From: Gammaproteobacteria bacterium
GTDB lineage: Bacteria > Pseudomonadota > Gammaproteobacteria > SZUA-229
Length of the DNA: 64,000 bases
Assembly: GCA_015488885.1 (NCBI GenBank)
Contig: WFMW01000061.1
Location: 1-64,000 of the forward strand
Reading direction: 5' to 3'
Within the stretch, counting starts at the first letter, position 1. Every line of letters starts with the position of its first letter. Made by a program: the position numbers and the translations under genes. This document shows, piece after piece, positions 12,577 to 45,850 of the stretch. Under the pieces are notes generated by a model. It worked only from the letters and a program-made list of their open reading frames with translations, ran no database searches and had not been told where the DNA came from.

Positions 12577-12583
12577 TGCTACC

Positions 12584-17401: not shown

Positions 17402-17410
17402 AATCTATTC

Positions 17411-18187: not shown

Positions 18188-18240
18188 GATAAAAGTTATA
18201 CCGCTGTATGAATTAACCGATTATCTCTAACTGATAATGA

Positions 18241-18510: not shown

Positions 18511-18530
18511 ATTCATACCTCATAATAAAA

Positions 18531-19945: not shown

Positions 19946-19981
19946 AAAAGGGTCATGACTATTTTCATCGTTGATAAAGTA

Positions 19982-20452: not shown

Positions 20453-20536
20453 TTTTCTCTCCTCAATAATCAGTTATTCTGTGTATGTAATCCAACGGAC
20501 GAATGAAAAAGCTTTCTATCCCGGTAATTAGTCTAA

Positions 20537-21574: not shown

Positions 21575-21635
21575 TATTTTTCCTGACTTTTAATAATTAA
21601 TTTAGGTTGAATGTGTTAAATGTATGGTGTTGCCA

Positions 21636-28400: not shown

Positions 28401-29106
28401 GCATCTCGGTCTGGATGAGCGCGTAAAGGGTAGCCAGATTGAACTTGCTTATGAGCAGACTTTTCCGATTTATAGTGGTATGAATATTGGTTTCGCTGCC
28501 GGGCTGCAGCAACGCAGTAAAATAAGTGCCAGTGCTTATGAACTGCTTAACTGGAACCATCTTGATCTGCGCAATGATTATCAATGGGACAGCCGTAGCT
28601 CACTGGCAACACAACTGCGCTGGAATTATTATGATTCAATCTGGGGCGATTTTCTTGGTCAGGGTTTTGATCTGGATATCAACCTGAATCATATCGTGTT
28701 TGCCAATGCGCCCCAATGGTTGCTGCATAGTGACATACAATGGACACATACCAATACTGTCGATAAACTTCCCGCCGACTTCAGCCCTTATTTTACGACG
28801 CCAAACCCGGATATCAATACCGTATTAACCCGGCGTTTTGGACGTATTGGTATCGGTACCACGCTACAACATGGCACCCCCGGTATTATTGCCCATCAAC
28901 GGGCTTCACCTCACTGGCTGCTGGATCTGGATGCCGGCTTTCAGTGGACCAGCGGTCGTTTTGACTGGGCGGTGAACAGTGGTTTTGGCTGGCGCCTGTT
29001 CGGTGATGACGAACTGGCGCTGACCGCCCGTTACAGTAGCGATACCCGTGGTGCTGGCAGCACATATCAGCTGTGGTTAGGCTATAATAAATATATCGGT
29101 CGTTGA
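25456..29106 (+). CDS. pelB: PelB, TPR scaffold and outer-membrane Pel export porin
   Basis: This 1216-residue protein has an N-terminal membrane anchor (about 23-43, VPALIIMIVVLTVVLVLL) and about 800 residues of helical TPR-type repeats (for example LRLSLARQLYVTGQLKQAMS and ISIAQQTGRQEMVDHWLTRA). About 330 C-terminal residues form alternating strands of a beta-barrel and end in an aromatic, outer-membrane-like YQLWLGYNKYIGR. It docks PelA and exports the polymer. The start is TTG at 25456 behind GGTGGGGGC, overlapping the pelA stop by 14 bases, which favours coupling. P. aeruginosa PelB has 1193 residues. Confidence 0.93.
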   Translation: MSAIKLTTLRGEPYHREQLINVPALIIMIVVLTVVLVLLFPKKAVFSDPAYLHAPDALSIAYLKLLLKSDPGNTELRLSLARQLYVTGQLKQAMSAINLLVAHAPAGYQTQIYNLNVKLIAQQYFAHRDTAGKTLLLDLQAAFQQAVAAANTPAELKVVYNMAKNWATPSIQLRIVRKIIDQIRAPQQKVAWLLTAADLSLAQNRPTTAANWLEQAYNASLRSKPALAARILRTLLATGNPDNALQRTPYYVHRHPHSKNLLQLAISIAQQTGRQEMVDHWLTRATQLEPDNMDYNRRLMKLKLATGQLQAAALLADIRLQHPGLSTAERTRIAHLYEWNGQPGKALKQWYWLSMHAPHADEEARQRALKLAIGLFHYRQATRLYEHIASQRPLQLAEQKALTGLYLMAGQSAKVEKSYRHFLQQHPQNKSIWSALAGLYVSEHRLPQAATAYESIDKKFGLSEKQLLDLKNIYWLLDEPERAHKLLLAYAGTADKMDSAYWKARAEMAWYLEDTDNIDGIYHFLLAGNHKQAIDASMLNQLMALYAAGNNDKKSTRLAILGWQRLHKADYAIKALSYASQSGDWALASRVAEQIKATPHAQVLKKNSHYWQLLANIARHRQQFPQAIAYLQQATLLSPDNSQLELSLLWLLIEQHKEKNPRLRTALLSSIQRFGQNPYLLDAQAAAWSALGQYDMAVRWYRQSLPAHQQDWPWLLDYAYALQQNGQTLAAWRVRRYTLAWMQQHPESNTKIATGRDWTSSYLSLVREFAGKAVGWKMAGVLFKDKTSRFIKNSQTQQKRLTLFTEWALADHHQSLATAIQARATRQQLKLPDWQQLGLAMQQYDTGTIEKLLANSQSLPLADRTLALAENGYHARALNFGLTHLSAKASYDDQQQLRAAVASIRSQQPNGIKLGLLAEGIGDIHFSGPQLHYAHASDYGITLIDAHSFNTSGQQSLVSQWPQENRLRLSQRWLNRAGSQTLHLGLDERVKGSQIELAYEQTFPIYSGMNIGFAAGLQQRSKISASAYELLNWNHLDLRNDYQWDSRSSLATQLRWNYYDSIWGDFLGQGFDLDINLNHIVFANAPQWLLHSDIQWTHTNTVDKLPADFSPYFTTPNPDINTVLTRRFGRIGIGTTLQHGTPGIIAHQRASPHWLLDLDAGFQWTSGRFDWAVNSGFGWRLFGDDELALTARYSSDTRGAGSTYQLWLGYNKYIGR

Positions 29107-29140
29107 GAATAACCATAAAATAATGACCAGTAGGCTAAAA

Positions 29141-29740
29141 ATGTATAAAACAATAACGATAAAATTGCGTACTTCCGGCATCATTCTGCTAAGTTTGCTG
29201 ATATTAACCGCCTGTTCGGTAGATCAGGTGTATCACCATACTGTACTGGATAAACAGGCAAACTGGGTATTATTGCCGGTTATCAATCAATCACAGACAC
29301 CACAGGCGGGTGAACGGGTCGAAGCTGTTCTGGCCTCGCTGTTGCGCAGTCGTGGCATTAACCACCTCACTCACTACCCCCGAACACCAACATCGCAAGT
29401 TTTGACAATGCTTGACGATCAGAGCCGTTATGAGGCGGCATTAAAATGGGCATCAAAACAGGGGTTTCGTTATGGTATTACCGGTACCGTCGAGGAATGG
29501 CGCTATAAAGCCGGGCTAGATGGTGAACCCGCAGTAGGCATCACCCTGCGGGTTATTGATTTAAGCACTGCTGGTTCAGACCATAACAAAACAGAAACCA
29601 GTCAGGCGACAACACCTGTTGTAATCTGGTCTGCCACTGGCGCGCGAACTGGCTGGGGCAGGGAAGGCATTGCTGTTGCCACACACACATTATTAAATAA
29701 GCTGCTGGACGGGATGATTTTTAGCCAACACAATAAATAA
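29141..29740 (+). CDS. pelC: PelC, outer-membrane lipoprotein of Pel export
   Basis: This lipoprotein of about 199 residues has a lipobox in LLILTACS, which makes Cys25 the lipidated residue from the chosen start. The frame is open from ATG 29123, but AGG lies at a better distance from ATG 29141 and this start gives a normal signal peptide. PelC forms a ring at the periplasmic side of the outer membrane that guides the cationic polymer to PelB. The family core is seen in LPVINQSQTPQAGERVEAVL and YGITGTVEEWRYKAG. It lies six bases before pelD. Confidence 0.92.
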   Translation: MYKTITIKLRTSGIILLSLLILTACSVDQVYHHTVLDKQANWVLLPVINQSQTPQAGERVEAVLASLLRSRGINHLTHYPRTPTSQVLTMLDDQSRYEAALKWASKQGFRYGITGTVEEWRYKAGLDGEPAVGITLRVIDLSTAGSDHNKTETSQATTPVVIWSATGARTGWGREGIAVATHTLLNKLLDGMIFSQHNK

Positions 29741-29746
29741 CTGCCG

Positions 29747-31132
29747 ATGGAACCCCTTATCAACCGTAACCGGCTAGAACAAATCAAGCTAAAATCCGGC
29801 TGGCAAGCCTGGTTTGAGATGTCTTTAATTACCGCGATCTCACTGGGTTTAAGTATCTGGGCTCATCCTGACGATCCTTTTTTTATCGACTCATCCTTTC
29901 CCTGGCCACTATTAGGGCCAGTTATTGTCGGCCTGCGCTACGGTTTTTTCTTTGGATTTATCAGTGATCTGCTGGTACTGGCAGCGCTAGCTATAAGCCT
30001 GCGCCTGCAATGGTTGCAACTGAATGTTTTTCCTTATGACTACGCCATTGGTCTAACAGCCATTACCATGCTGGCGGGTGAATTTCGAGATGTGTGGAGC
30101 CGCCGAATTGAACGCTTACAGGAAACCAATGACTATCGTCAGATTCGTTTAAATGAATTTACCCGCAACTATCACCTGCTTAAAGTTTCCCATGACCGAC
30201 TGGAACAGCAAATTGCTGGTAGTGGTCACAGCCTGCGTGAAGGTCTGCGTTTTATCCGTAGCCAACTGTCGTCAAATTCCGTTAACGGCCTGAACGCAGA
30301 AATTGCCCAGGCACTGCTGGCAATGATGGTGGAGTATGGTAATCTGCAAAAAGCCACTTTATTTGCCATCGAGACTGATGCGCATAATAACCCCACCAAA
30401 CAGTTGATGGCATCGCCATTAGCACGATCTGGCAGTACGGCTTCCATCGACCTCAATGACCCATTAATTCACCATTGCATCAAAACCCGTAAACTGGTCA
30501 GCGTGCATCCTGAACGGGTAGACAATAAAAATTGGGACACTCAGCTACTTGCCTGTATTCCACTGATTGATGCCCAGAACCGGCTCTGGGCAGTCATTAC
30601 CATTGAAATGATGCCATTTTTCTCTTTCCAGAAAAAAAACCTGCGTCTGCTTGCCGTTCTGGCTGGCCATATGGCTGATTTATTAAATACCCACGCAACC
30701 ATCACTGCCATCACTGACGAAGATCTTGCTTCACTGGCAATAAATTTAAACCGCGCCATGCATGACCGGCTACAATTTGATATTCCCGCGGTACTTCTGG
30801 TTGTGGATGTTGATGGCCATGACACCCATGCGCAGCCATTTATCGAGCTAATCAAACGGATGCAACGCGGGCTTGATATTCTTGTCCATAAACAACGCGA
30901 GCAGCAACATCAGTTAATTATTCTGCTGCCATTAACCGATGAAATGGGGCTGGCTGGTTATCACCAGCGACTGGTAGATTTACTCAAATCCAACCATGGC
31001 CTGAACCTTTCTGACTTGCCAGTAAAACTAAACCCGCACCCCCTGCAGAACCAGGCTTTACTGAATCAATTTATTAAACAGAGGATATGGAATGGGGAAA
31101 GTCTGGCTCAGCATTCTGGCATTGATTCTTGA
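29747..31132 (+). CDS. pelD: PelD, inner-membrane c-di-GMP receptor for Pel synthesis
   Basis: This 461-residue protein has four hydrophobic segments in the first about 112 residues, a coiled coil (115-160), a GAF domain (about 175-315) and a degenerate GGDEF domain (about 325-455). The active GGDEF motif is absent, while an RxxD inhibitory-site motif is kept (RGLD, 374-377). In P. aeruginosa the same site binds c-di-GMP and switches on polymer synthesis. The domain order and length match PelD (455 residues). Its end overlaps pelE by 41 bases. Confidence 0.95.
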   Translation: MEPLINRNRLEQIKLKSGWQAWFEMSLITAISLGLSIWAHPDDPFFIDSSFPWPLLGPVIVGLRYGFFFGFISDLLVLAALAISLRLQWLQLNVFPYDYAIGLTAITMLAGEFRDVWSRRIERLQETNDYRQIRLNEFTRNYHLLKVSHDRLEQQIAGSGHSLREGLRFIRSQLSSNSVNGLNAEIAQALLAMMVEYGNLQKATLFAIETDAHNNPTKQLMASPLARSGSTASIDLNDPLIHHCIKTRKLVSVHPERVDNKNWDTQLLACIPLIDAQNRLWAVITIEMMPFFSFQKKNLRLLAVLAGHMADLLNTHATITAITDEDLASLAINLNRAMHDRLQFDIPAVLLVVDVDGHDTHAQPFIELIKRMQRGLDILVHKQREQQHQLIILLPLTDEMGLAGYHQRLVDLLKSNHGLNLSDLPVKLNPHPLQNQALLNQFIKQRIWNGESLAQHSGIDS

Positions 31133-32102
31133 AATCGCAGGCATCGCTGCTTTGCTTACCGATATAAACTCGGTGGGAAAATTATCCATTTTTTTACTGG
31201 GTAATACCCTGGCCTGTATGACTTTTTCCGTGGTACTGTGGCAGCTTATGCCACAACGCTACCGTTATCCACTGAAACAATCGGCTTTCTTTCTATTTAT
31301 TATCCAGTTTTTTATTCCCTTGATTGGCAGTATCGGCCTTGGTACTGGCCTGATTCTTGCCCTGCATCTGCCACGTTCACGCAGCCGACAGTTATGGAAC
31401 GAAACCGATGACCCCGCATTACCTTATCGCCCCTCTGAAGTCAGTAGTCAGCCCCTGTATAGCCAGGGTGGTTTAGCACAGGTTTTGCACGAAGCAGGTA
31501 GCATTGAGAAACGCATTCGCGCCGTCATGGCAACCAAACAGATGAAAAACCGCGATGCTGTCGCTATTCTGCAACAGGCATTAAAAGATACCAGTGACGA
31601 TGTTCGCCTGCTGGCCTATGCCATGCTGGATGAAAAAGAAAAAATCATTACTGAACGCATTAAACAGACACAGCGGGCACTGACACAGGCAAAAACAGAT
31701 GACAGGCAAAATGCTATACTGATTCAACAAAAACTACTTGCCGGGCATTACTGGGAAATGGCCTATCTGGGTCTGGCACAGGGTGGCGTCAGGACGCATT
31801 TTTTAACCCAGGCTCGCAACCATTGTGAAGCTGTGCTGGCACAGACAGAGGATGCTGCCAGCCTGCGCTTATTAGGCCGAATCAACCTTGAAACTCATCA
31901 GCCTGAAGCAGCAAAAAAAGCCTTTTCTGAGGCAATTGAACAGGGATTACCCCGGCTTCAGGCCTTGCCCTATCTGGCGGAAATTGCCTGGCTGCAGGGT
32001 GATTTTTACCATATCAGGGAACTCCTCACTGAATTATCCAGTAACTCGCAACCGATTCACCCGACACTTTATGGAGTCATCGACTATTGGCTACAAACCT
32101 GA
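31092..32102 (+). CDS. pelE: PelE, inner-membrane TPR protein of the Pel synthase complex
   Basis: This 336-residue protein has two or three hydrophobic segments in the first about 90 residues (VWLSILALILEIAGIAALL and AFFLFIIQFFIPLIGSIGLG) followed by soluble helical repeats consistent with TPRs (DAVAILQQALKDTSDDVRLL, and AASLRLLGRINLETHQPEAA). PelE joins PelD and PelG to the PelF glycosyltransferase at the membrane. The ATG at 31092 follows AGAGGAT and lies inside the pelD end. The pelF gene starts inside its last codons. Confidence 0.9.
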   Translation: MGKVWLSILALILEIAGIAALLTDINSVGKLSIFLLGNTLACMTFSVVLWQLMPQRYRYPLKQSAFFLFIIQFFIPLIGSIGLGTGLILALHLPRSRSRQLWNETDDPALPYRPSEVSSQPLYSQGGLAQVLHEAGSIEKRIRAVMATKQMKNRDAVAILQQALKDTSDDVRLLAYAMLDEKEKIITERIKQTQRALTQAKTDDRQNAILIQQKLLAGHYWEMAYLGLAQGGVRTHFLTQARNHCEAVLAQTEDAASLRLLGRINLETHQPEAAKKAFSEAIEQGLPRLQALPYLAEIAWLQGDFYHIRELLTELSSNSQPIHPTLYGVIDYWLQT

Positions 32103-33661
32103 ACCCGTCATCGCAAACCGATAACCACAAACCCGTTGCCGATATCGGCCTGATGCTTGAAGGTACCTACCCCTATGTTCGGGGCGGGGTTTCTTCCTGG
32201 GTGCATCAAATTATTTCTGGCCTGCCACAATATACCTTCGCGCTGGTCTTTCTTGGCGGGCAAAAAGAAAATTACGGCAAAATGATGTATCAACTGCCTG
32301 CCAATGTCACCCACATTCAGGAACATTATTTAATGGACCTGCATCACCACCATCAACCCGCCCCCATGGCAGGTAATCCACAGGCTTTTGCCGCTATGAA
32401 AGCCATGCATAGCCAGTTCAAAACCGGTGAACATGTGGATATCGAGGTGATGAAAAATGTCTTTTTTGAACTCGGTAAAACCGGCGGGGTAACCCGTGAA
32501 AGTTTTCTTTACAGTGAGCAGGCATGGTCAATTATCAGTGAATTTTATGATAAATATTGCACCGAACCTTCGTTTATTGATTATTTCTGGTCGATTCGTA
32601 CCATGCATGCCCCACTGTTTCTGCTGGCAGATATTGCCAGAAATCTACCGCCAGTACGTATTGTTCATTCTGTATCAACCGGTTATGCCGGGCTTCAGGG
32701 AACCATTATCAGTCAGCTGTACAATTACCCTTATATATTGACCGAACACGGCATTTACACCAAAGAACGTAAAATTGATCTGGCTCAGGCGAACTGGATT
32801 CATGACCCTGAAGACGAAGTCAGCGGTACTCTGCAGGCAGAAGTGGGTTATATTCGCCAGTTATGGATTCGCTTTTTTGAACTGATAGGTAAGCTCACCT
32901 ATCAATCTGCTGAGCCGATTATTTCCTTATATGAAGGCAACCGTCAACGGCAGATTGATGATGGTGCGCTGGCAGCAAAAACACAGGTTATACCCAATGG
33001 CATTGCGCTGGAAAAGTTGAGCGCACTGTACCCCAAACGCCAGTCTGGCGTGCCAAAAATTCTCGGACTAATTGGCCGAGTGGTACCCATTAAAGACATT
33101 AAAACCTATATTCGTATGATGCGAATTATCTGCAATCAACTGCCTGAAGCAGAAGGCTGGATTGTCGGCCCCGAGGAAGAAGACCCAGAATATGTAGAGG
33201 AATGCAAGGAGATGGTGGCGGGTCTGGATTTGACTGATAACGTAAAATTTCTCGGCTTTCAGAATGTTGCAGATATTTTGCCACAACTGGGCTTAATGGT
33301 ATTAACGTCTATCAGCGAAGCCCTGCCGCTGGTCATACTGGAAGCGTATGCCTCTGGCCTGCCCTGTCTGGCCACCAATGTTGGGGCCTGCAGCGAATTG
33401 ATTTACGGGGTAAATGACGAAGATAAAGCTCTTGGTGCCAGCGGTGTGGTGGTGCCAATTGCCGACCCGGAAGCCGCAGCAAAAGGTGCACTGACTTTAC
33501 TCACTGATGACCACGCCTGGCATCAGGCACAACAGGCTGGGCTACAACGGGTAAAAAAATATTATACACAGAAAATCATGTTTGATGCCTATCAGAAAAT
33601 TTATGATACCGCTCTGGTCGAAAGTGATCGACGTCTGAAAACACAGGGGATAAACGTTTAA
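32087..33661 (+). CDS. pelF: PelF, cytoplasmic glycosyltransferase polymerising Pel
   Basis: This 524-residue GT4-type retaining glycosyltransferase uses UDP-linked amino sugars. The N-terminal fold has the PelF signature LEGTYPYVRGGVSSWVHQII. The C-terminal fold has ILGLIGRVVPIKDIKTYIRM and the donor-binding ExxxxxxxE-type loop SEALPLVILEAYASGLP. The start is TTG at 32087 with GGAG about ten bases upstream, overlapping pelE by 16 bases. The ATG inside the signature would remove conserved residues, so the TTG is preferred. Confidence 0.95.
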   Translation: MATNLNPSSQTDNHKPVADIGLMLEGTYPYVRGGVSSWVHQIISGLPQYTFALVFLGGQKENYGKMMYQLPANVTHIQEHYLMDLHHHHQPAPMAGNPQAFAAMKAMHSQFKTGEHVDIEVMKNVFFELGKTGGVTRESFLYSEQAWSIISEFYDKYCTEPSFIDYFWSIRTMHAPLFLLADIARNLPPVRIVHSVSTGYAGLQGTIISQLYNYPYILTEHGIYTKERKIDLAQANWIHDPEDEVSGTLQAEVGYIRQLWIRFFELIGKLTYQSAEPIISLYEGNRQRQIDDGALAAKTQVIPNGIALEKLSALYPKRQSGVPKILGLIGRVVPIKDIKTYIRMMRIICNQLPEAEGWIVGPEEEDPEYVEECKEMVAGLDLTDNVKFLGFQNVADILPQLGLMVLTSISEALPLVILEAYASGLPCLATNVGACSELIYGVNDEDKALGASGVVVPIADPEAAAKGALTLLTDDHAWHQAQQAGLQRVKKYYTQKIMFDAYQKIYDTALVESDRRLKTQGINV

Positions 33662-35040
33662 TGGCTGGCATCGGTTTTGAAATTCGTCGTATTCTGGAAA
33701 AGGACACCCTGTTCTCACTGCTGGAAGCTTACGGTTATGCAGGCATTATCAGCTCCGGTCCCTGGGTACTGTCCATTCTGGGTGTGATGATGATTGGCAT
33801 ACTTAGCTATACGCTGGTCTCGCCACAAACCTTAATCGTCCAGTTCCTGGTTTCCGTCACCTACCTGATGGCATTTTCACTGATATTAACCGGTGCACTA
33901 CAATTAATGTTTACCCGCTTTATTGCCGACAGACTATTTGAAAACAAACCGCAGATCATTCTTCCAAATATGCTGGGCGCATTATTTTTGACGACCATGG
34001 TGGCGGGTTGCAGTGGTACGCTGGTATTATTTTTACTGTTTGATCAAAATCTGCTTTACCGCCTGTTAATGCTGGCTAATTTTGTTGCCCTGTGTAATCT
34101 CTGGATCGTGATTATTTTTCTGTCCAGCATGAAAACCTATCGACTGATTGTTAGCCTGTTTTTTGCCGGTTACAGTCTTGCCGTCATCGCTGCCCTGGGG
34201 CTTTCTCTACTTGGACTTGGCCTCAACGGCCTTTTACTGGGGGTGCTTACTGGCCATTGTTTCCTGCTTTTTGGTTTTCTGTTTGTTATTATCCGTGCCT
34301 ATCCGGGCGATCACCTGATAGCATTTGACTTCCTGCAGAAAAAACAGATTTTTGTCAGCCTGGCTTTCACCGGTTTCTTCTTTAATCTAGGTATCTGGGC
34401 AGATAAACTGATTTTCTGGTTTTATCCCGATACCTCACAGCCTGTTATCGGCCCACTACGTGCTTCATTAATCTACGACCTGCCGATTTTCCTCGCCTAT
34501 CTGTCAATTATTCCCGGTATGGCGGTTTTTCTGGTGCGCATGGAGGCGGATTTTGCCGAACAGTACGATCTGTTCTATACCTCTATTCGTGAAGGTGATA
34601 CCCTGCAACGTATCTTTTATCGAAAAGACCGGATGATTTATACCGCACGTCAGGGTATTTATGAAATTTTTAAAGTCCAGGGAATGACGGTGGTACTCCT
34701 GCTGCTGTGGGGGCAGGATATCCTCCGAGTGATAGGCATTTCACCTTTGTATGTGCGCCTGTTTTATATTGATGTGGTCGGTGTTAGTGTACAGGTTCTG
34801 CTATTGTCGATTATGAATGTGCTGTTCTATCTCGATGGCCGCCGTATTGCCCTGTTTCTTACCCTGTTGTTTCTATTGTCAAACACCCTGTTTAGCTGGC
34901 TCAGCATACAACTGGGGGCCTCCTTTTTCGGTTATGGTTTTACCCTGGCGATGGCATTAACCAGTCTGGTAGGACTGGCATTACTGTCACGCAAAATGAG
35001 GCGGCTGGAATATGAGACCTTTATGTTACAGGGGGCATAA
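33661..35040 (+). CDS. pelG: PelG, Wzx/PST-like inner-membrane Pel transporter
   Basis: This 459-residue protein has about twelve hydrophobic segments and no large soluble domain. It begins with the PelG family pattern MAGIGFEIRRILEKDTLFSL and overlaps the pelF stop by one base (TAATG). It moves the growing polymer across the inner membrane with PelD and PelE. Its length matches P. aeruginosa PelG (456). It is the last pel gene; a hairpin that includes its stop codon follows, and the next gene is convergent. Confidence 0.94.
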   Translation: MAGIGFEIRRILEKDTLFSLLEAYGYAGIISSGPWVLSILGVMMIGILSYTLVSPQTLIVQFLVSVTYLMAFSLILTGALQLMFTRFIADRLFENKPQIILPNMLGALFLTTMVAGCSGTLVLFLLFDQNLLYRLLMLANFVALCNLWIVIIFLSSMKTYRLIVSLFFAGYSLAVIAALGLSLLGLGLNGLLLGVLTGHCFLLFGFLFVIIRAYPGDHLIAFDFLQKKQIFVSLAFTGFFFNLGIWADKLIFWFYPDTSQPVIGPLRASLIYDLPIFLAYLSIIPGMAVFLVRMEADFAEQYDLFYTSIREGDTLQRIFYRKDRMIYTARQGIYEIFKVQGMTVVLLLLWGQDILRVIGISPLYVRLFYIDVVGVSVQVLLLSIMNVLFYLDGRRIALFLTLLFLLSNTLFSWLSIQLGASFFGYGFTLAMALTSLVGLALLSRKMRRLEYETFMLQGA

Positions 35041-36439: not shown

Positions 36440-36946
36440 CTATGTATTATGCAGTAAACCCAATATAGCTTTGAGGATAACTTCCGGTGTTGGTGGGCAC
36501 CCCGGGATAATAACATCAGGCTTGAGTATCTTAGCGATGCCACCCATCACCGCATAAGAGCCTGCAAATTCTCCACCATCAACAGCACAGTCCCCCATAG
36601 CAAGCAACCATTTTGGCTCAGGTGTAGCCTCCCAGACATCAAGCACGGCCTGCGCCATATGCTGACTTACCGGGCCGGTGACCAGCAATGCATCCGCATG
36701 TCTGGGCGAGGCAACGAAATGCACACCAAAACGTTCAATATCATAAAAGGCATTGTTTAAGGCGTGAATTTCCAGTTCACAGGCATTACAGGAACCACTG
36801 TCCACGGCGCGAATAGCAAAACTACCGGCAAAACGTTTATTGATAACGGATTTAACCTCAATCCCAAGTGCCTGCAAATCGCTGTCAACGGCGATAGTTT
36901 CAGTCACCATACCGGTTTTACGAATTTTATTAAATAGTCTTAACAT
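36440..36946 (-). CDS. Ehr/hydrogenase-4-type small subunit (HyfI/NuoB-like Fe-S protein)
   Basis: This 168-residue protein is of the NuoB/HyfI family. The four ligands for one [4Fe-4S] cluster are present: Cys53 and Cys56 in SCNACELE, Cys120 in MGDCAVDGG and Cys150 in PGCPPTPE. In related complexes this cluster is the one nearest the active site. It follows the large subunit by 12 bases and is the last gene of the six-gene set. The CxxC spacing is hydrogenase-like, not the CC pair of NuoB. The cluster is intact even though the large-subunit active site is not. Confidence 0.9.
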   Translation of the reverse strand: MLRLFNKIRKTGMVTETIAVDSDLQALGIEVKSVINKRFAGSFAIRAVDSGSCNACELEIHALNNAFYDIERFGVHFVASPRHADALLVTGPVSQHMAQAVLDVWEATPEPKWLLAMGDCAVDGGEFAGSYAVMGGIAKILKPDVIIPGCPPTPEVILKAILGLLHNT

Positions 36947-36958
36947 AATCGTTATGGC

Positions 36959-38545
36959 CTATAGATCATGCCCGGAATAGGAACCATTCACCGATTTATT
37001 ACACACTGGAAAATCCGGGACAATATTGCCATCAATCAACTGTTCCAGTGCCGGCCAGTTCAACCAGCTGGGGTCGCGCGCATAAAAACGGCTGATTTTA
37101 CCCGTGGCATCAAACTGAACATAGCTAATAATTTCACCCCGCCAGGCTTCAACCATACCCAGACCTTCGCAGATGGCTACGGGAGGCTTCCATGTATTGG
37201 CTATATCGCCATCAGGCAACTGCTGTAACAGGGTATCCATTAGAATGAGTGAATGGATAATCTCATCAGCTCGCACCTGCAGGCGGGTGGCGACATCACC
37301 CTGCTGATAACAGGGCGAATCAATATTCATGCGGTCATATGGCGCATAGGCATGGTCACGACGCAGGTCATAATCCACACCACTGGCTTTTGCCAGATAA
37401 CCGACAACACCCAGTTTGGTGGCTAATTCATGCGATAAATGACCTGCACTAACCAGCCGATCTTCCAGTGATGCATGGTCATTAAGAATCGCCATTAACT
37501 CATTCAGCTCGGTTTTTATAACTGCATGCTGCTGGCTCAGGGTTTCGCATTGCTGACTGGATAGATCAACCTTAACCCCGCCCGGAACAATAGTGTCCAT
37601 TAACAGACGATGTTTGAATATAACGCTCTGCGTGCGCTGCCAGATTTCCCGCAGGCGACTGAACTGGCTATTGGCAAAGGCGAAGCCAACATCATTACAG
37701 ATGGCACCAATATCCCCGAGATGATTGGCAACACGCTCACGTTCAGCCAGCAGAGCACGTAAATAAATGCCACGTCGCGGCACCGCCACATTCGCCGCCC
37801 GTTCCATTGCCATGCAGGCACACCAGGTATGCGCGACTGTGGTATCGCCTGAAATTCTACCCGCCAGTTTTGCCAGCCCTTCGGCATCGCGGCCTTCGGC
37901 TATTTTTTCAATGCCTTTATGCACATAACCCAGACGTTCTTCCAGATTCAGAATGGTTTCACCCACGGCCTGAAAGCGAAAATGTCCTGGTTCGATAATA
38001 CCGGCATGCACCGGGCCAACCGGAATTTCATAGACCCCTGAACCCTGTGCCTGAAAGAAAGGATAATAAGTATCCGCCGGGGCGACCTGATCGCTATGCG
38101 CCATGCGAATATCCTTACGCAACGGAAAAATTTCTTCATCCCAGGCCTGATGCCGAATCCAGCGACGGCTATCGGGATGATTACCAAACATAACACCGAA
38201 CATATCCTGGCTATGGCGCTCGGGTCGATTGGCAGCAGGAAATACCGGGGCCTGTGAGGGCAACACCGGGCTGTGTATATCCAGTGGGGCGCGAATAACC
38301 AGATAATCACCCTGTTTTTCAAAGCAGGCATTCATTAACAGGGTTTCTTCATCCTGTTGTACTGCCCAGACAGCACACCAGCGGGTCTGCTGTTCAGCCG
38401 CCATCACGGCAAACTTGCCCCAGTCCTCAATATCAATATGCAATACATGGGCGGGTGCAAGTTCACGTGCCGAGCCGCCATGAAACAGAATATGCTCTTC
38501 TTCACAACGTGCAATCAATTCGGATAACCAGTCAAACCGACTCAT
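36959..38545 (-). CDS. Ehr/hydrogenase-4-type large subunit fused to NuoC-like domain, Ni-Fe ligands missing
   Basis: This 528-residue protein has an N-terminal NuoC-like part (about 1-150, FPAANRPERHSQDMFGVMFG) and a C-terminal NuoD/HyfG-like part (VGPVHAGIIEPGHFRFQAVG, ERLGYVHKGIE, VEAWRGEIISYV). In group 4 [NiFe] hydrogenases an RxCxxC motif lies near residue 230; here it reads RISGDTTVAH without Cys. The C-terminal DPCxxC position reads DPSWLNWPAL. It also lacks the cleaved C-terminal peptide. This fits the energy-converting hydrogenase related (Ehr) family, with unknown substrate. The frame opens at 38626, but ATG 38545 overlaps the upstream stop as ATGA and begins the conserved region. 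Confidence 0.88.
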   Translation of the reverse strand: MSRFDWLSELIARCEEEHILFHGGSARELAPAHVLHIDIEDWGKFAVMAAEQQTRWCAVWAVQQDEETLLMNACFEKQGDYLVIRAPLDIHSPVLPSQAPVFPAANRPERHSQDMFGVMFGNHPDSRRWIRHQAWDEEIFPLRKDIRMAHSDQVAPADTYYPFFQAQGSGVYEIPVGPVHAGIIEPGHFRFQAVGETILNLEERLGYVHKGIEKIAEGRDAEGLAKLAGRISGDTTVAHTWCACMAMERAANVAVPRRGIYLRALLAERERVANHLGDIGAICNDVGFAFANSQFSRLREIWQRTQSVIFKHRLLMDTIVPGGVKVDLSSQQCETLSQQHAVIKTELNELMAILNDHASLEDRLVSAGHLSHELATKLGVVGYLAKASGVDYDLRRDHAYAPYDRMNIDSPCYQQGDVATRLQVRADEIIHSLILMDTLLQQLPDGDIANTWKPPVAICEGLGMVEAWRGEIISYVQFDATGKISRFYARDPSWLNWPALEQLIDGNIVPDFPVCNKSVNGSYSGHDL

Positions 38546-40026
38546 AACAGATGGCTCCCGGTAATCAAAAAGGTAGCCTGATCGAACCAGTGGGAGAGAA
38601 ATCCCGGAATCGCAATCCCTAACCACAACACCAGTAGCAACTGCACCACCACCGGGAACATATTGGCCTCAACCTTTTGCTGACCTTCCGGTACATCACC
38701 ATAAACCATAGGGTGTAGATGACGAAACAGGCCGGCAAAGGCAACCGCCAGACCGGTTAATAACGGCACAGTTAACCATGGATAGGATTTCATGGTGGCA
38801 GATAACAATAAAAACTCACTGGTAAACACCCCGAACGGCGGGAAACCGGCAATCGCCACGGTACCAATAGCCAGCCCCCAGCCTACTGCTGGCTGGGTTT
38901 TGATTAAACCGCGAATATTGTCGATAGACTGGGTTTTAGCAATATGGGTAGCATGACCCACGGTGATAAAGATGGCAGATTTAGTAAGCGAATGCACCGT
39001 CATATGTAACAGACCGCCAAACGTTGCCAGCGGCCCGCCCAGGCCAAACGCGAACGTCATTAGACCCATGTGCTCAATGGATGAGTAGCTGAACAGGCGT
39101 TTGATATCACGTTGACGGTGCAGAAACAGCCCCGCCACGGTAAAGGAAACAATCCCGAAGCCCATCATCAGGTTGCCTGCCATATGCGGTGAATGTAACG
39201 TCCCGCTGGCAAGCGCGGCATCAGTAATAATTTTCACCCGGATAATGGCATACAAAGCCACATTGAGTAACAGGCCTGATAATACCGCAGACATCGGTGT
39301 TGGACCTTCTGAATGTGCATCAGGCAGCCAGGTATGCATGGGCACCAGGCCGACTTTGGTACCATACCCCACCAGCAGAAACACAAACGCAATCGCCATC
39401 ACTGCGGGTTGCAAACTGCTGGCATGGGCTGATAACACCGTCCATAATAAGGCATTTTCAGGGTCGGGAATGACCTGTGCAGCAGCGAAATATAATAGCA
39501 CCGTACCGAACAAAGCCAGCGCAATCCCCACCCCGCAGACAATGAAATACTTCCATGCTGCTTCCACGGCTTCCGGTGTCCGGTACAAACTTACCAGCAA
39601 TACGGTCGCCAGTGTGGCACCTTCCATTGCCACCCATAACACGCCCAGATTATTGGTGGACATGGCCAGCTGCATGGTGAACAGAAACCCCTGATAGCTG
39701 GCGTGATACAAACGCATACGCCCAGGGCTTAAACGGCCATTGGCCTCTTCCTGCGCCATATAGGGTAAGGAAAAGAAAGCCGTGGTCGCACCGACAAATG
39801 CGGTTAAGGCAATTAAATAGACATTAAAGGAATCCACCCTGAACTGCCCGGTGTAGCCACCCAGAGAACCATGATTCAACACATTCAAAGCCAGCCAGAC
39901 ACTGCTGGCAAATGCCGCCACTGTCGCCAGCAGATTAAATTTAGCCGCCCAGGATCGATTGCCGAATATTCCCAGCAGAATACTCGAACACATGGGTATC
40001 AATAAAGTCAGATACAGCGCGGTCAT
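38542..40026 (-). CDS. Ehr/hydrogenase-4-type antiporter-like subunit (HyfF-like)
   Basis: This 494-residue protein has about 14 hydrophobic segments and belongs to the Mrp/NuoM/HyfF antiporter-like family. Conserved points include the Glu in LGVLWVAMEGATLATVLLVS, the Lys in GYGTKVGLVPMHTWLPDAH, and KRLFSYSSIEHMGLM. Such subunits move H+ or Na+ across the membrane. It overlaps both neighbours by four bases (ATGA). It is somewhat shorter than E. coli HyfF (526). Confidence 0.9.
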   Translation of the reverse strand: MTALYLTLLIPMCSSILLGIFGNRSWAAKFNLLATVAAFASSVWLALNVLNHGSLGGYTGQFRVDSFNVYLIALTAFVGATTAFFSLPYMAQEEANGRLSPGRMRLYHASYQGFLFTMQLAMSTNNLGVLWVAMEGATLATVLLVSLYRTPEAVEAAWKYFIVCGVGIALALFGTVLLYFAAAQVIPDPENALLWTVLSAHASSLQPAVMAIAFVFLLVGYGTKVGLVPMHTWLPDAHSEGPTPMSAVLSGLLLNVALYAIIRVKIITDAALASGTLHSPHMAGNLMMGFGIVSFTVAGLFLHRQRDIKRLFSYSSIEHMGLMTFAFGLGGPLATFGGLLHMTVHSLTKSAIFITVGHATHIAKTQSIDNIRGLIKTQPAVGWGLAIGTVAIAGFPPFGVFTSEFLLLSATMKSYPWLTVPLLTGLAVAFAGLFRHLHPMVYGDVPEGQQKVEANMFPVVVQLLLVLWLGIAIPGFLSHWFDQATFLITGSHLL

Positions 40027-40697
40027 TCTTCACGTTCCGACAGATGATTAAGCTGATCCACATCCAGCGATTGAATACTGTCACGAATATGGAAAAAGAA
40101 TACGCCAAAAATAACTGCGGCAATCAACACGTCAAACGCCACCCCCAGTTCCACCACCATCGGCATCCCATGGGTGGCCGCAACGGCGGCAAAAAACAGA
40201 CCATTTTCCAGTGACATAAAACCCACCACTTCGGCCACCGCTTTACTCCGGCTGACCAGCATCAACACCCCAAGCAACACCACGGACATACTGATTGCGA
40301 TAGTATTACGGGTTATTGAAGAGGAAAACTGTTCAATCGGCTGGGCGACGTAATAACAAAAAATCACCAGTGCAGCGCCCGCCATTAAAACAGTTACCGG
40401 ATGTTCGGCACCATGCTCATCATGGTCGATACCCAGTCGAATCACCAGCCGCTGTAATAACCAGGGAACAAACATGGCTTTTAACAGCAATGCCAGAATG
40501 GCGGAAAAATACAGATCATATTTCCCACTATCGTAAGCTACCAGCGCTGTCGTCGCGGCCACAATCAGACCCTGCCAGGCAAAAATACGTATCATGGGAA
40601 TCACCCGGCTCTGTGCCAGCAGGGCAAAAGAGGTAAACAACACCATGGCCGCCAGCGTCAGAATCAGCTGTTGGTATAAGGGCAATTGTTCCAGCAT
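40023..40697 (-). CDS. Ehr/hydrogenase-4-type membrane subunit (HyfE-like)
   Basis: This 224-residue protein has six or seven hydrophobic segments and matches HyfE (216 residues in E. coli), whose C-terminal part is NuoK-like. Recognisable parts are ILALLLKAMFVPWLLQRLVI and VGFMSLENGLFFAAVAATHG, with a Glu inside a membrane helix. It lies three bases after the NuoH-like gene and overlaps the HyfF-like gene by four bases. It should form part of the proton channel that links the antiporter subunits. Confidence 0.88.
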   Translation of the reverse strand: MLEQLPLYQQLILTLAAMVLFTSFALLAQSRVIPMIRIFAWQGLIVAATTALVAYDSGKYDLYFSAILALLLKAMFVPWLLQRLVIRLGIDHDEHGAEHPVTVLMAGAALVIFCYYVAQPIEQFSSSITRNTIAISMSVVLLGVLMLVSRSKAVAEVVGFMSLENGLFFAAVAATHGMPMVVELGVAFDVLIAAVIFGVFFFHIRDSIQSLDVDQLNHLSEREE

Positions 40698-40699
40698 AA

Positions 40700-41644
40700 T
40701 CAGCCAACCTCCAGAATAATGTGGCTTAACAGCCCGATTAATGCCAGTGTCAGCGCCAGTACCAGAAAAGTCGATACCCGGAATAAACGCATTTTTGCAA
40801 ACAGGGTTTCACCTGCGGCCAGTACCCCACCAAGCAGTACCAGTTTAACCAGTAAGGTACCCGCTCCCACCGCAATCGCACTCATTGAATCGGTGGTAGC
40901 AATCCCCCAGGGGAAGAAAATATTGGCAATCAATACCGCATAAATCATTAATTTCAGCTGCACCGCCCATTCGATTAACGCCAGATGACGACCGCTGTAT
41001 TCCAGAATCATCGCTTCATGAATCATGGTCAGCTCAAGATGGGTAGCTGGATTATCCACCGGAATGCGCCCGGTCTCAGCAATACCCACCAGCAGCAGGC
41101 TTAACAGGGCAAAAAACAAAGATGGCCTTAACACCAGCCCCTGCGCCATTAGATGTTCAATAACAATCGACAGGTTGGTGCTGGAAGCCACCATCGACAG
41201 GGTAAATACCGCCATTAACATGGCGGGTTCAGCGAGTGCTGAAATGGTCATTTCACGGGATGAGCCCATGCCACCGAAGGCGGTACCAATGTCCATCCCC
41301 GCCAATGCCTGAAAAAATCGTGCCAGTGCAAAAAAACCTGCCAGCACAATCACATCGGCAATCGCCGCCGTAGGTAGATTAACCGAAATAAACGGCACTA
41401 CCGCCGCCGCCATTAAGGTTGCCCCGGCAATAATATAGGGCGTTACCCGAAATACCGGTGATGCTATTTCAGCCATGATCACCTGCTTGCTGAACAGGCG
41501 GCGTAAATCCCGATAAGGCTGCAATAATGAAGGCGAACGACGGTTTTGCAACCAGCATTTCACCCGCTTCACCCAGGCTGAAAACAGAGGTGCCAGCAAT
41601 ACAAAAACAACCAGTTCAAGTAACGATAATAACCAGTCCATCAT
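40700..41644 (-). CDS. Ehr/hydrogenase-4-type NuoH-like subunit (HyfC-like)
   Basis: This protein of about 314 residues has eight membrane segments and is of the NuoH/HyfC family. The loop WLQNRRSPSLLQPYRDLRRL is the conserved cytoplasmic contact with the soluble arm, and GRIPVDNPATHLELTMIHEA is the second signature. It anchors the Fe-S arm to the membrane. The frame opens at 41656, but the ATG at 41644 overlaps the previous stop as ATGA and is chosen. Confidence 0.92.
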   Translation of the reverse strand: MMDWLLSLLELVVFVLLAPLFSAWVKRVKCWLQNRRSPSLLQPYRDLRRLFSKQVIMAEIASPVFRVTPYIIAGATLMAAAVVPFISVNLPTAAIADVIVLAGFFALARFFQALAGMDIGTAFGGMGSSREMTISALAEPAMLMAVFTLSMVASSTNLSIVIEHLMAQGLVLRPSLFFALLSLLLVGIAETGRIPVDNPATHLELTMIHEAMILEYSGRHLALIEWAVQLKLMIYAVLIANIFFPWGIATTDSMSAIAVGAGTLLVKLVLLGGVLAAGETLFAKMRLFRVSTFLVLALTLALIGLLSHIILEVG

Positions 41645-43677
41645 GTAATGATCCACAGCAACAGAATAAGCGTACCGAAGGTATAAGCCAGATAATGACG
41701 CAGATTACCGGTCTGAATCAGGCCGACCCGTCGCGCAGCTGCGTGTAATAGTCGGGTAATGGGCAGGTAGATGGAACGCCAGGTAATATCTTCGGCATGA
41801 ACCTGATAACGAATGCTTTCCGGTTCCAGCGGCAGGTCTTTTTTCATCACCCGGTCATCGTCTTCATGCAAACGCCAGACCGGTGCAAAGACCCGGCGAA
41901 TAGGCATCGTGAACGCCGTGGCCGTATATTGCATACGTGAATTTAATGACCCAAAACCACAACTCCATGCCTTACGCCAGACGGTTTTCACCCTGCCTGC
42001 TGGTTTAAGAAAATAATACACCCCCGCCCAGGCGGACAACGCCAGCAAAATACCCACAAATACCAATGGTGCACTATATGAGGCTGTATTGGCAGAAACC
42101 GGGGTTAACCATAACCAGCCATGTGCCGTGGCGGTACTTAACACATGCCCGGTCAAAGACTGGGTGAGATGGCTCATTGCCCCAACCACGGCGGTTGGAA
42201 ACACCCCGAACAACAAACACATCAATGCCAGCCATGCCTGGGCCAGTACCATACCGCGCGTGGCTTCCCGGGCATGGCGAACTTTGCGGGTACGTGCCTG
42301 CCCCAGGAAAGCAATGCCATAGACCTTGACAAAACAGGCGGCAGCCAATGCACCGGTAAGTGCCAGTGACGCTGCCGCGATAGGAATAATCGAACGCAGA
42401 ACCCCGCTTTCCAGATTAGGCACCTGCAGGGCGGTCTGAAAGGTTAACCATTCCGACACAAAACCATTAAACGGCGGTAATGCCGAAATGCTGATACAGC
42501 CAATCAGGAAAAACAGCCCGGTCCAGGGCATCCGCTTTAACAGCCCGCCCATACGTTCAAGGTTACGCTCATGGCTACGCTGTAACACCACGCCTGCACC
42601 CAGAAATAATAGACTTTTAAACATGGCATGATTAATCGTATGATAAAGCGCCGCGATTAACCCCAGCGTGCCAAGCACCGGATTACCCGTCCCATAAAAA
42701 ACCATCGACAGGCCCAGACCAATAAAAATAATACCGATATTTTCTACCGAGTGATACGCCAGCAGGCGTTTTAAATCATGCTGCATGAGCGCATACAATA
42801 CCCCGAACAAAGCGGTGATACTGGCAATAATTAATAACGCGACACCCCAGGCCCAGTGGACATGGCCGATCAATCCAAACGTCAGGCGGATAAAACCATA
42901 GACCGCCACTTTCAACATCACCCCGGACATCAAAGCTGAAATATGCGAAGGCGCAACTGGATGCGCTTCTGGCAACCAGATATGCATAGGCACGAGACCG
43001 GCTTTCATACCGAAACCGACTACGCCGAGTGCAAAGGCAACCGTTGCCCAGGTTAAGGTTAAGGGCGCACTCTGCATAGCAGCAAAGGTAAAGTCACCGC
43101 CAAAGGCAGCCAGCACACCAAAGCTGAGCAGAATACACAGCGCACCTACCTCTGCCATCAACAAATAGATAAACCCGGCACGACGATTGGCAGAATGTTC
43201 ATGTTGGTATACCACCAGAAAATAACTCGATACCGACATCAATTCCCACGCTACCATAAACGAGAATGCGTCGGCGGCAACCACCACCATTAACATACCG
43301 GTAACGAATAAACCGGTAAACAGACCCAGTGCGGAAAGCGGGTGTTTACCATGCTCATACTCACGTATATAGCCCGGACCAAACAGGCTGACCGCAATGG
43401 TGACAATACCAATCAATAACAGGAAGAACCCGGCCAGCGGATCCAGTAACATATGCCAGTGCAGCCATGGCAGACCGGCTGGAAACACAAACGACTGGCT
43501 GCCGCCATGCAATAAACGATAAGCCCCAAGGCAGACAGCAACCGCCCCGCCTGCGCCAAGCAGGGGAAACACCAGCCAGCGCATCAGCGCCGAATTTTTA
43601 TCAGCGGCGAACGAGGCAAGCGCAGAAGCTACCGGCAACAGCAGCATCGTTAGCAGCAAAAATTCACTGATATTCAC
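41641..43677 (-). CDS. Ehr/hydrogenase-4-type antiporter-like subunit (HyfB-like)
   Basis: This 678-residue protein (E. coli HyfB has 672) has about 16 hydrophobic segments. It carries the antiporter-family residues in FMVAWELMSVSSYFLVVYQH, GFGMKAGLVPMHIWLPEAHP and LKRLLAYHSVENIGIIFIGL. A polar stretch (about 560-640) precedes a last membrane helix. It is the first gene of the complex. The start is GTG at 43677. With the HyfF-like subunit, the complex has two potential ion pathways. Confidence 0.92.
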   Translation of the reverse strand: MNISEFLLLTMLLLPVASALASFAADKNSALMRWLVFPLLGAGGAVAVCLGAYRLLHGGSQSFVFPAGLPWLHWHMLLDPLAGFFLLLIGIVTIAVSLFGPGYIREYEHGKHPLSALGLFTGLFVTGMLMVVVAADAFSFMVAWELMSVSSYFLVVYQHEHSANRRAGFIYLLMAEVGALCILLSFGVLAAFGGDFTFAAMQSAPLTLTWATVAFALGVVGFGMKAGLVPMHIWLPEAHPVAPSHISALMSGVMLKVAVYGFIRLTFGLIGHVHWAWGVALLIIASITALFGVLYALMQHDLKRLLAYHSVENIGIIFIGLGLSMVFYGTGNPVLGTLGLIAALYHTINHAMFKSLLFLGAGVVLQRSHERNLERMGGLLKRMPWTGLFFLIGCISISALPPFNGFVSEWLTFQTALQVPNLESGVLRSIIPIAAASLALTGALAAACFVKVYGIAFLGQARTRKVRHAREATRGMVLAQAWLALMCLLFGVFPTAVVGAMSHLTQSLTGHVLSTATAHGWLWLTPVSANTASYSAPLVFVGILLALSAWAGVYYFLKPAGRVKTVWRKAWSCGFGSLNSRMQYTATAFTMPIRRVFAPVWRLHEDDDRVMKKDLPLEPESIRYQVHAEDITWRSIYLPITRLLHAAARRVGLIQTGNLRHYLAYTFGTLILLLWIIT

Positions 43678-44062
43678 GTTAAGGTAACCTGTGGGTTATT
43701 TTAAAGAGCCAGAATTTTTTGAGGAGCAAAAAACAGACTCGGCATTATATTGAGGCTGGAATCATGATATGCGTTGACTCTCATACATATCGACGAATGC
43801 CTGACGGCGCGATTATACGCGCCCATCTATATAAATACCAGAATAAATCCCGCGTCACCGATGGTTTCAAAGCCAGGTCGGGCGTCACATTAATACACGA
43901 CATTAACAGCGATAATTGCCTATAAAATCCGCCTATACAATCCGCCTATACAATCCGCCTATAAAATCCGCCTATAAAATCCGCCTATACAATCCGCCTA
44001 TACAATCTGCCTATACAATCTGCCTATACAATCTGCCTATACAATCTGCCTATACAATCTGC
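43678..44062. other. 385-bp gap before the Ehr operon, partly filled by a 13-bp tandem repeat
   Basis: The left part holds a possible minus-strand -10 element, TATAAT at 43812-43817, inside a GGCGCG/CGCGCC inverted repeat (43806-43823), about 130 bases before the HyfB-like start; its -35 is poor. The right part is the repeat array starting at 43918. An open frame across the array on the plus strand is a by-product of the repeat. Confidence 0.6.
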
Positions 44063-44086
44063 CTATACAATCCGCTTATCAAATCC
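43918..44086. repeat. Minisatellite: 13 copies of a 13-bp unit over the end of the dynamin-like gene
   Basis: The unit is GCCTATAMAATCY. Thirteen head-to-tail copies span exactly 169 bases with only A/C and C/T variants, except for a diverged last copy at 44074-44086. Identical variants cluster (units 7-11 are the same), as expected from slippage. The last two units hold the final codons and the stop codon of the minus-strand dynamin-like gene, so the array seems to have grown out of its 3' end. It has no spacers and is not CRISPR. Confidence 0.95.
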
Positions 44087-45850
44087 ATGCAACTGCTCAA
44101 GATTATGCTGGAGGCGTTGTTTTTGTTTTTGCGCTTCAGCACTGTTCGTCTCATTAACCTCCAGCCCTTTTGTTACCGCCCTTTCAATCCCTTCGAGTGT
44201 GCTATCAATACGGTCAAGCATGATTTTCCTGAAATCAGACTCACTTTTTTGCAGCCGTTGCACAAAGTCATAACGCAGCCGACCCGCCTGAGTATCGACA
44301 AGCTCATCGCCATAGCGCAATGATGCCTTCAATACCAGCCGATCACCAATAAACTTTGGCAGTGCATGCAATGCCGACCTGCCCACAATCACAATACTGC
44401 CCGGCATTTCCCAGAATTTATAATAAAAGCCGGATTTTGCCTGCCAGGCCGCATTGGCGTTTACTGTTTCATAGGGAATGGAAAACAGGTCAGCCGAAAA
44501 ATGATACAGGGCATCGACGGTAGCATCTACCTTCACACTGAAGCGTTTGACAGCAGACTGAAATGCCACTTCCAGTTTTTTATCCTCGTCTTTACGAAAG
44601 CTGTCCCAACCATTACGTACTGATTCCAGCGCTGTTTGCCTCAAGGTTTCATGTAAATCATGCAGCGAGGCCTGACGCGCCGCATGGAATTGAGCCTGCA
44701 CTTTTTCCCGCACCTGTGTCGTAATAATGGCCGCAGCCGCATCAATATCCGCCGCCAGCTCAGTATCGATCAACTGCTTGATCTCTGCGGCCAGCAAAAC
44801 CCTGAAATCGTGTTTTTCCTGGCTTATCTCAACACGTTTTTCTGCGAAAACATCCAGCTTCTGCTGCAACTCTGCCACCGGGGCATTCAACGAAGACAAT
44901 GCCAGCTCGGTATTAAAGCGAGCCTGAACAACAAGGCGCCGCAAACCTTTGGCCAGTGCGGTAGCCAGTGCATTGCCTTTTTCCTGCATTAAAAAATGTT
45001 CCAGCTCCCGGCCAAATGGCGTAAACCCGCTCTGCGACAGGGCTTTCTCATACTGGCCTTTATGTTCCTCATCACGGTAGCGCAGCGACTGCAAGGCCTG
45101 CTGTGCCGAAACCGGAAACAGCGCAGGCTGAGACCCACCCATGGCCCGCTCAAGCACACTGCGGGTAAAAGTGCTGGCTTCTTCAAGCTCGGCTGTGGAC
45201 AGCAAATCAGCCTTATTGAGCAAAAAGAAGACTTTACCCGCATACGCACGCACCTCCTGCAGGAAATCATATTCAGCCTGCCCCACCGGCTGGTCAACCG
45301 ATAATACAAACAACACCGCATCGGCTTTGGGAAGAAAATCGCGGGTCACATCACTGTTATGCCGATAAATGGAACCAATCCCTGGTGTATCCACCAGGCG
45401 AACACCGTTTTTCAGCCAGGGCGAGGGCCAGTTGATACGCACTTCAGCCACGTCTTTAATATTTTCCGGATTGCCTTTTTCCGTGGCATAATCCCATAAT
45501 TCATCCAGCTGATGAACCTGCTCGGTGCCATCATTAAACGCTACCTTTAGCTGAGCTTGCTGCCCATATTGCAATACCGTTGCAATCGCCGTAAGCGGCA
45601 CCACACCCACAGGCAGAATATCGGCACCAATCAGTGCATTGAGAATACTGCTTTTGCCACGCTTGAACTCACCCACCACAACCAGGTTAAAATGGTTCGA
45701 TGCTGCTCGCTCTCGCAAAGCCTGCAATTCACCAACCGGAAAAACATCGACCATCTGCCCGGCTTCATCAAGACACTGCCGGATACGACCCAGCTGGTTC
45801 ACTTTTGACTTTTTATTTATATCCATAAATTTTACCGACCGTTCAAACAT
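44063..45850 (-). CDS. Dynamin-like GTPase
   Basis: This 595-residue protein is a bacterial dynamin-like large GTPase. It has G1 GEFKRGKSSILNALIG (60-75), G2 Thr in VVPLTAIATV, G3 DTPGIGS and G4 NKADLL. A long helical stalk follows (about 270-470) with a short hydrophobic/aromatic stretch (GFYYKFWEMPGSIVIVGRSA) that could be the membrane paddle, and then more coiled coil. Such proteins bind and remodel membranes; the exact role is unknown. An internal ATG at 45826 is an alternative start. The last codons (KRIV and stop) lie inside a 13-bp repeat array. Confidence 0.88.
   Translation of the reverse strand: MFERSVKFMDINKKSKVNQLGRIRQCLDEAGQMVDVFPVGELQALRERAASNHFNLVVVGEFKRGKSSILNALIGADILPVGVVPLTAIATVLQYGQQAQLKVAFNDGTEQVHQLDELWDYATEKGNPENIKDVAEVRINWPSPWLKNGVRLVDTPGIGSIYRHNSDVTRDFLPKADAVLFVLSVDQPVGQAEYDFLQEVRAYAGKVFFLLNKADLLSTAELEEASTFTRSVLERAMGGSQPALFPVSAQQALQSLRYRDEEHKGQYEKALSQSGFTPFGRELEHFLMQEKGNALATALAKGLRRLVVQARFNTELALSSLNAPVAELQQKLDVFAEKRVEISQEKHDFRVLLAAEIKQLIDTELAADIDAAAAIITTQVREKVQAQFHAARQASLHDLHETLRQTALESVRNGWDSFRKDEDKKLEVAFQSAVKRFSVKVDATVDALYHFSADLFSIPYETVNANAAWQAKSGFYYKFWEMPGSIVIVGRSALHALPKFIGDRLVLKASLRYGDELVDTQAGRLRYDFVQRLQKSESDFRKIMLDRIDSTLEGIERAVTKGLEVNETNSAEAQKQKQRLQHNLEQLHGFDKRIV

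Follow-up and report, generated by a model that had tools for sequence, protein, structure and literature searches.

Here, we analyze a six-gene operon in a 64,000-nucleotide stretch of contig WFMW01000061.1 (hereafter the window) from a gammaproteobacterium of the lineage SZUA-229. By its sequence, the encoded complex is a member of the known, widespread Ehr (energy-converting hydrogenase-related) family: its large subunit lacks the Ni-Fe CxxC motifs, and a NuoB-like subunit and Mrp/complex I-type membrane subunits are encoded together with it, as the earlier note on this DNA had recognized. Conservation patterns indicate that the complex is not a relic and is maintained by strong selection, and we are inclined to regard it as a redox-coupled proton pump fed by a soluble carrier. 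Ehr complexes are widespread in sulfur oxidizers, methanotrophs, nitrifiers, and Geobacter and are often annotated as hydrogenase-4; to our knowledge, no reaction has been measured for the family so far. The survey by Marreiros et al. 2013 (BBA) is reportedly the main one. As Ehr complexes sit between hydrogenases and complex I, their substrate bears on the evolution of complex I, and the genome studied here, being devoid of HypD, offers a clean case.

The operon comprises six adjacent genes on the minus strand, running from 43677 to 36440 in the order B-C-E-F-G-I (hyfBCEFGI):

41641..43677, minus strand: EhrB, HyfB-like antiporter subunit, 678 aa, GTG start; NF005086 hydrogenase 4 subunit B, 828 bits (cut-off 667)
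40700..41644, minus strand: EhrC, NuoH/HyfC-like, 314 aa from the ATG of the ATGA overlap; PF00146
40023..40697, minus strand: EhrE, HyfE-like membrane subunit, 224 aa; NF008556, E=4e-25, under the curated cut-off, position kept among relatives
38542..40026, minus strand: EhrF, HyfF-like antiporter subunit, 494 aa; NF005045 hydrogenase 4 subunit F, 728 bits (cut-off 543)
36959..38545, minus strand: EhrL (HyfG-like, = G), 528 aa from the ATG of the ATGA overlap; NuoC and NuoD domains, PF00329 and PF00346
36440..36946, minus strand: EhrI, NuoB/HyfI-like [4Fe-4S] subunit, 168 aa; PF01058, 102 bits

Profile matches for all six genes bear out the HyfB-, C-, E-, F-, G-, and I-like set that had been described for this region. 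The membrane arm, which had been called complete, is so for an Ehr, but HyfD of E. coli hydrogenase-4 is missing. The reported lack of a HyfA/HyfH gene holds as well, since no HyfA/HyfH/NuoI-like gene was found in the 64-kb window. ATGA overlaps join B/C, E/F, and F/G, i.e., three of the five junctions, and place the starts of G at 38545 and of C at 41644, inside the longest open reading frames (ORFs); gaps of 2 nt and 12 nt separate C/E and G/I. The coupling is thus tight rather than "strict" as formerly worded, and as an argument that the complex works it is weak. Residue invariance, a low ratio of nonsynonymous to synonymous substitution rates (dN/dS), and co-retention of subunits provide much better evidence.

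The Ni-Fe site of hydrogenases is replaced in EhrL. In a search of solved structures with its sequence, E. coli HycE (7z0s_E) ranked at the top (E=4e-66), and its predicted fold is likewise nearest to HycE 7z0s_E (TM-score 0.85). Alignment with HycE, HyfG, and the NuoD of the same genome gave one and the same motif register. The first Ni-Fe motif of HycE, RVCGIC, aligns to RISGDT of EhrL and the second, SLDPCYSC, to SVNGSYSG at the extreme C-terminus (...NGSYSGHDL), which leaves Ser, Thr, Ser, and Gly at the four ligand positions. Both Cys pairs are therefore lost, as previously claimed, and RISGDTT was correctly named for the first pair; DPSWLNW, however, had been mistaken for the second and is an upstream stretch aligned to AATYANW of HycE. 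Among 81 large subunits, the first ligand column holds Ser in 78, Cys in two, and Val in one, and the second Ser in 59 and Thr in 22. The third is Ser and the fourth Gly in 79 each, with a single Ala in either column and one row truncated. Two Cys at the ligand columns are kept in none of the 81. The Ehr alignment contains neither compensating Cys ligands nor a new conserved Cys pair; Cys542 of G, counted along the 555-aa ORF, hardly varies but stands alone, and Cys310 is common to HycE.

HypD had no match in the whole 2.63-Mb genome (72 contigs, completeness 100%), while the E. coli control was matched. The absence of maturation genes noted for the operon thus extends, for HypD, to the entire genome, and maturation of a [NiFe] center by this host cannot be expected from its gene content. 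The GHDL end of EhrL is level with the end of NuoD and, in view of how HycE is processed, presumably with the end of processed HycE. Stopping at the length of a processed hydrogenase, EhrL should need no maturation protease. This end point and the lack of HypD and of compensating Cys ligands uphold the statement that the complex cannot be a hydrogenase. A hydrogenase with unusual ligands was considered and rejected for the same reasons, with no Cys left at the four positions. Group-4 [NiFe] hydrogenases are distinguished by the four Ni-Fe Cys ligands and HypD, all of which are missing here.

The Ehr of Geobacter sulfurreducens has been assumed to be a non-functional hydrogenase remnant (PMC13194489). 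Loss of the Ni-Fe ligands and the patchy occurrence in the order of our host (2/54 genomes) would fit such a decaying remnant, or a cryptic hydrogenase with Ser ligands, but we give this explanation next to no credence. A cryptic hydrogenase is at odds with the lack of HypD and with a C-terminus already at processed length. The relic view is already contradicted, as 120 positions of the large subunit are at least 97% conserved and the full gene set is present in distant lineages. Compared with the nearest relative, dN/dS was ~0.06 for F, 0.11 for G, and 0.08-0.13 for I, i.e., well below 1; these values are rough because dS of 1.5-2.3 is near saturation. The relatives, taken as the 80 best in GTDB genomes (49-71% identity), are mostly sulfur-oxidizing and methanotrophic Gammaproteobacteria, and a few records are labeled Deltaproteobacteria or Alphaproteobacteria. 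With few exceptions, the B-C-E-F-G-I order is near-constant among them where the contig allows, and the gene set is therefore not due to chance.

Subunits are kept even where the operon has been broken up. G stands alone in Chromatium okenii, an uncultured Chromatium, a Thiomargarita metagenome-assembled genome (MAG), and genome G032, and B-C-E-F-G occurs without I in several Chromatiaceae (broken-up loci L048, L065, L075, and L095; L040, L058, L062, and L076). A check of ten genomes, including eight with split operons, located F (59-71% identity) and an I of Ehr type (55-64%) elsewhere in every one. This genome-wide co-retention covers G, F, and I; C and E were seen beside F in most of the fetched stretches. 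Among the neighbors of the unlinked I genes, none recurs widely. Conserved residues, low dN/dS, and the persistence of G, F, and I in genomes with split operons together argue against a non-functional Ehr.

Cys 53, 56, 120, and 150 of EhrI, the four Cys that had been pointed out before, are invariant in 68 rows, save for one row truncated at the last position. The CxxC motif of EhrI has hydrogenase length and shows no gap in the alignment with HyfI and HycG, and no tandem CC was found in EhrI. The pumping residues Glu145, Lys225, Lys256, and Glu409 are present in EhrB, as are Glu135, Lys224, Asn255, and Glu404 in EhrF, where they match HyfF. Glu of transmembrane helix 5, Lys of helix 7, and Glu of helix 12 are kept in B and F; at helix 8, B resembles HyfB in having Lys, and F resembles HyfF in having Asn (13/13 relatives each). 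EhrC retains most NuoH-type charged channel residues. These channel residues, the absence of the four Ni-Fe Cys as in complex I, and a predicted fold in common with E. coli complex I subunit CD (TM-score ~0.8) would be expected of an enzyme that, with a soluble carrier feeding it, reduces quinone or oxidizes quinol in the manner of complex I. However, the quinone-site residues that the earlier note had singled out for inspection, His38 and Tyr87 in Thermus, are not kept and correspond to Ile211 and Gly260, EhrI lacks the tandem CC, and the genome already has a complex I, so that we regard quinone chemistry as rather improbable.

Instead of a hydrogenase or quinone site, Ehr proteins share a chamber residue set of their own, distinct from hydrogenases and complex I. 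A GD[ST][STA] motif occurs in 81/81 large subunits, an NKSxNxSYxGxDL-type C-terminus in 80/81 (the sole exception is truncated), and GPxHAGIIEPGHF is almost invariant. A loop of EhrC, NPATHLELTMxHEAMxLE, contains His202 and His209 (numbering from 41644) in 69/69 sequences; HyfC, HycD, and NuoH have Glu, Gln, or a gap at these places, and the EhrC loop has a 3-residue insertion. In MBS of Pyrococcus furiosus, the chamber is bounded by loops of the subunits that correspond to those of Ehr (PMC7684303). The Ehr residues may bind a substrate. No pocket geometry was read from the EhrL model (pLDDT 82) because confidence is low exactly at the chamber loops 164-208 and 506-528. The exchange of Cys for Ser, Ser/Thr, Ser, and Gly, the Asp and Asn/Ser set beside them, and the two invariant His of EhrC lead us to propose, tentatively and with more doubt than conviction, a fourth type of complex I-like catalytic chamber beside Ni-Fe, MBS open-iron, and quinone His/Tyr. 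Such a chamber might accommodate a metal other than Ni or a polar substrate, for which CO2/bicarbonate and formate are candidates, and Ehr would then be a separate class of energy-converting enzymes and not a hydrogenase remnant. The family-wide signature offers direct mutational targets.

MBS/Mbx is a precedent for a group-4 relative that lost its Ni-Fe site and kept the pump, compared here by its published description. MBS has two Ni-Fe Cys, an open-iron motif, two more clusters, and Mrp-type subunits (PMC7684303), whereas in Ehr a single subunit carries a cluster and the chamber residues differ. By analogy, Ehr could be a sulfane-sulfur (polysulfide) oxidoreductase in which the cluster itself is the catalyst. 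Many carriers are sulfur oxidizers, the host genome has dsrA, and MBS is the group-4 relative without Ni-Fe that has been characterized (PMC7684303). Yet the Cys motif of MBS is shortened, leaving an open iron, and two Ni-Fe Cys are kept (PMC7684303), a combination not seen here; the EhrI motif has full hydrogenase length and Ehr keeps no Ni-Fe Cys pair. Methanotrophs and Geobacter-type bacteria carry Ehr as well, and we consider this function quite improbable.

The reading that we favor, if only by a modest degree, is the redox-coupled proton pump. Electrons would be exchanged between the one [4Fe-4S] cluster of EhrI and a soluble carrier of low potential (a ferredoxin-like protein or a soluble dehydrogenase) docked at the site of the HyfH/NuoI wire. 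A small substrate, held in a space lined by EhrI, EhrL, and the loop of EhrC, would in turn exchange electrons with the cluster, and C would couple this exchange to the movement of ions in B and F. H+/H2 would not be the substrate, and neither would a quinone bound through the His/Tyr pair typical of complex I. Regarding direction, we lean slightly towards an uphill reaction driven by the proton gradient in this sulfur-oxidizing autotroph. The proposal draws on the cluster Cys (68/68), the antiporter Glu/Lys in B and F, the lost Ni-Fe ligands, and the missing HypD, and further on the fixed gene order, co-retention of G, F, and I, dN/dS of ~0.06-0.13, a putative ferredoxin-NuoB fusion, and Ehr protein in G. 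sulfurreducens. Redox-coupled charge translocation by Ehr has been suspected previously (PMC6349859).

The putative fusion provides a clue to electron entry. In two Desulfobacterota, Geothermobacter hydrogeniphilus (L083:410-4085) and a deltaproteobacterial MAG (L072:1-1959), a second, group-4-like pair of large and small subunits is encoded directly upstream of Ehr B. The Ehr signature is present in the large subunit of this pair (AAGDTS, CNKSFNLSYCGFDL), and in the small subunit the NuoB domain is preceded by a ferredoxin-like stretch at the N-terminus. The ferredoxin-like assignment rests on the Cys pattern and a HyfH match (E=7e-12, 3e-9), as Pfam Fer4 scores are under the cut-off. If the fusion reading is right, Ehr-type complexes are redox machines fed via the NuoB-like subunit, and the six-gene form uses a soluble carrier. 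All Ehr subunits of G. sulfurreducens were more abundant on formate (PMC7894505); an Ehr complex is therefore made as protein.

Several points weigh against the redox pump. Gene-neighbor and co-occurrence searches identified no electron donor or acceptor, and no partner gene was common to the relatives (80 loci and the neighbors in an even sample of the class). The conserved EhrI cluster could be structural only, and its occupancy, redox activity, and ion movement are predictions from sequence. Among 54 immediate neighbors, no Pfam family occurred in more than two. Genes for SulP (sulfate/bicarbonate-type) transporters of two subfamilies adjoin 19/80 loci, next to Ehr B or I (L026, L030, L033, L056, and others). 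They could indicate that Ehr moves H+/Na+ independently of redox chemistry (or in connection with bicarbonate) to keep pH or inorganic carbon in balance, with the hydrogenase-like head as regulator or CO2/bicarbonate site. A beta-carbonic anhydrase gene follows SulP at L056, a bestrophin-like gene is found at L046, the hyfBCEFG cluster of A. caldus adjoins a beta-carbonic anhydrase (PMC3826726), and the two new invariant His of the EhrC loop would also suit such a role. However, SulP adjacency is mostly confined to one order, the methanotrophs, with the second subfamily in sulfur oxidizers, and it falls to 1 of ~29 in the even sample, which led us to reject SulP as the partner. RuBisCO was not significantly linked to Ehr (18/30 Ehr genomes vs 99/199 others, p=0.33), and p=0.015 was reached only in a subset with a score threshold picked afterwards; a link to autotrophy was dismissed accordingly. 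Homeostasis would also leave the 68/68 conserved cluster Cys unexplained, and we judge it unlikely.

Ehr was present in 30/229 genomes of the even class sample, in which genomes are related and p-values uncorrected. HypD was found in 16/30 Ehr genomes vs 74/199 others (p=0.11), and the 14/30 without a HypD match imply that the complex is independent of hydrogenase. Formate dehydrogenase (TIGR01591 cut-off) occurred in 12/30 vs 44/199 (p=0.04); its absence over this cut-off from 18/30 Ehr genomes rules it out as an obligate partner. The host genome encodes FdhA with a NuoF-like partner on another contig, complex I NuoD/NuoB on contig C44, a form II-type RuBisCO, and dsrA. DabA (PF10070), the mark of the DAB inorganic-carbon pump, had no match in it. 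From these genes, we read the host as an autotrophic sulfur oxidizer without [NiFe] hydrogenase.

No difference of kind separates the complex from published hyfBCEFGI-type Ehr, which have the same gene set and, as stated for A. ferrooxidans and comammox, a large subunit without Ni-Fe CxxC. This set was reported in Nitrospira (PMC5596200) and in Acidithiobacillus ferrooxidans, where a classifier called it non-hydrogenase (PMC7735108). Ehr without Ni-Fe ligands were noted in comammox Nitrospira (PMC10284858), Sulfobacillus (PMC4378227), and sister lineages of Cyanobacteria (PMC6349859). Unlike these clusters, ours lies in a genome without HypD, and the adjacent CO dehydrogenase or carbonic anhydrase of some clusters is absent. 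B, C, E, F, G, and I are homologous to E. coli Hyf/Hyc, with HycE as best solved-structure match, but Ehr lacks the Ni-Fe Cys, the C-terminal extension, HyfA, HyfD, HyfH, HyfJ, and Hyp proteins. With complex I, Ehr shares the homologous core, the loss of the four Ni-Fe Cys, and the position of the large-subunit C-terminus, but not the tandem CC, the quinone His/Tyr, or the NADH module; the NuoD of this genome is separate. Our additions, some of which may have been reported earlier, are the corrected second motif, the Ser/Ser-Thr/Ser/Gly count over 81 proteins, the chamber signature with the two His of EhrC, the joint retention of G, F, and I in split operons' genomes, and the lack of HypD.

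Within the order of the host, Ehr was found in only two of the 54 genomes searched (the host and G265), which belong to different genera and have 71% identical large subunits; this distribution is suggestive of patchy loss or transfer. GC content is 50.8% in the operon vs ~46.5% in its flanks, which together with the 2/54 genomes hints at a recent gain. The upstream neighbor encodes a dynamin-like GTPase (44063-45850) with no match in the loci of relatives, and a DUF4124 protein and one unknown protein are encoded downstream. Between the dynamin-like gene and the operon, ~240 nt upstream of EhrB, is a 13-bp tandem repeat, GCCTATACAATCC, with 12.5 copies and 95% match (window 43918-44079). Large plus-strand genes at 22623-35040 form a putative Pel-type exopolysaccharide locus, named by sequence appearance, which is adjoined by a flagellar gene cluster (~10958-22232).

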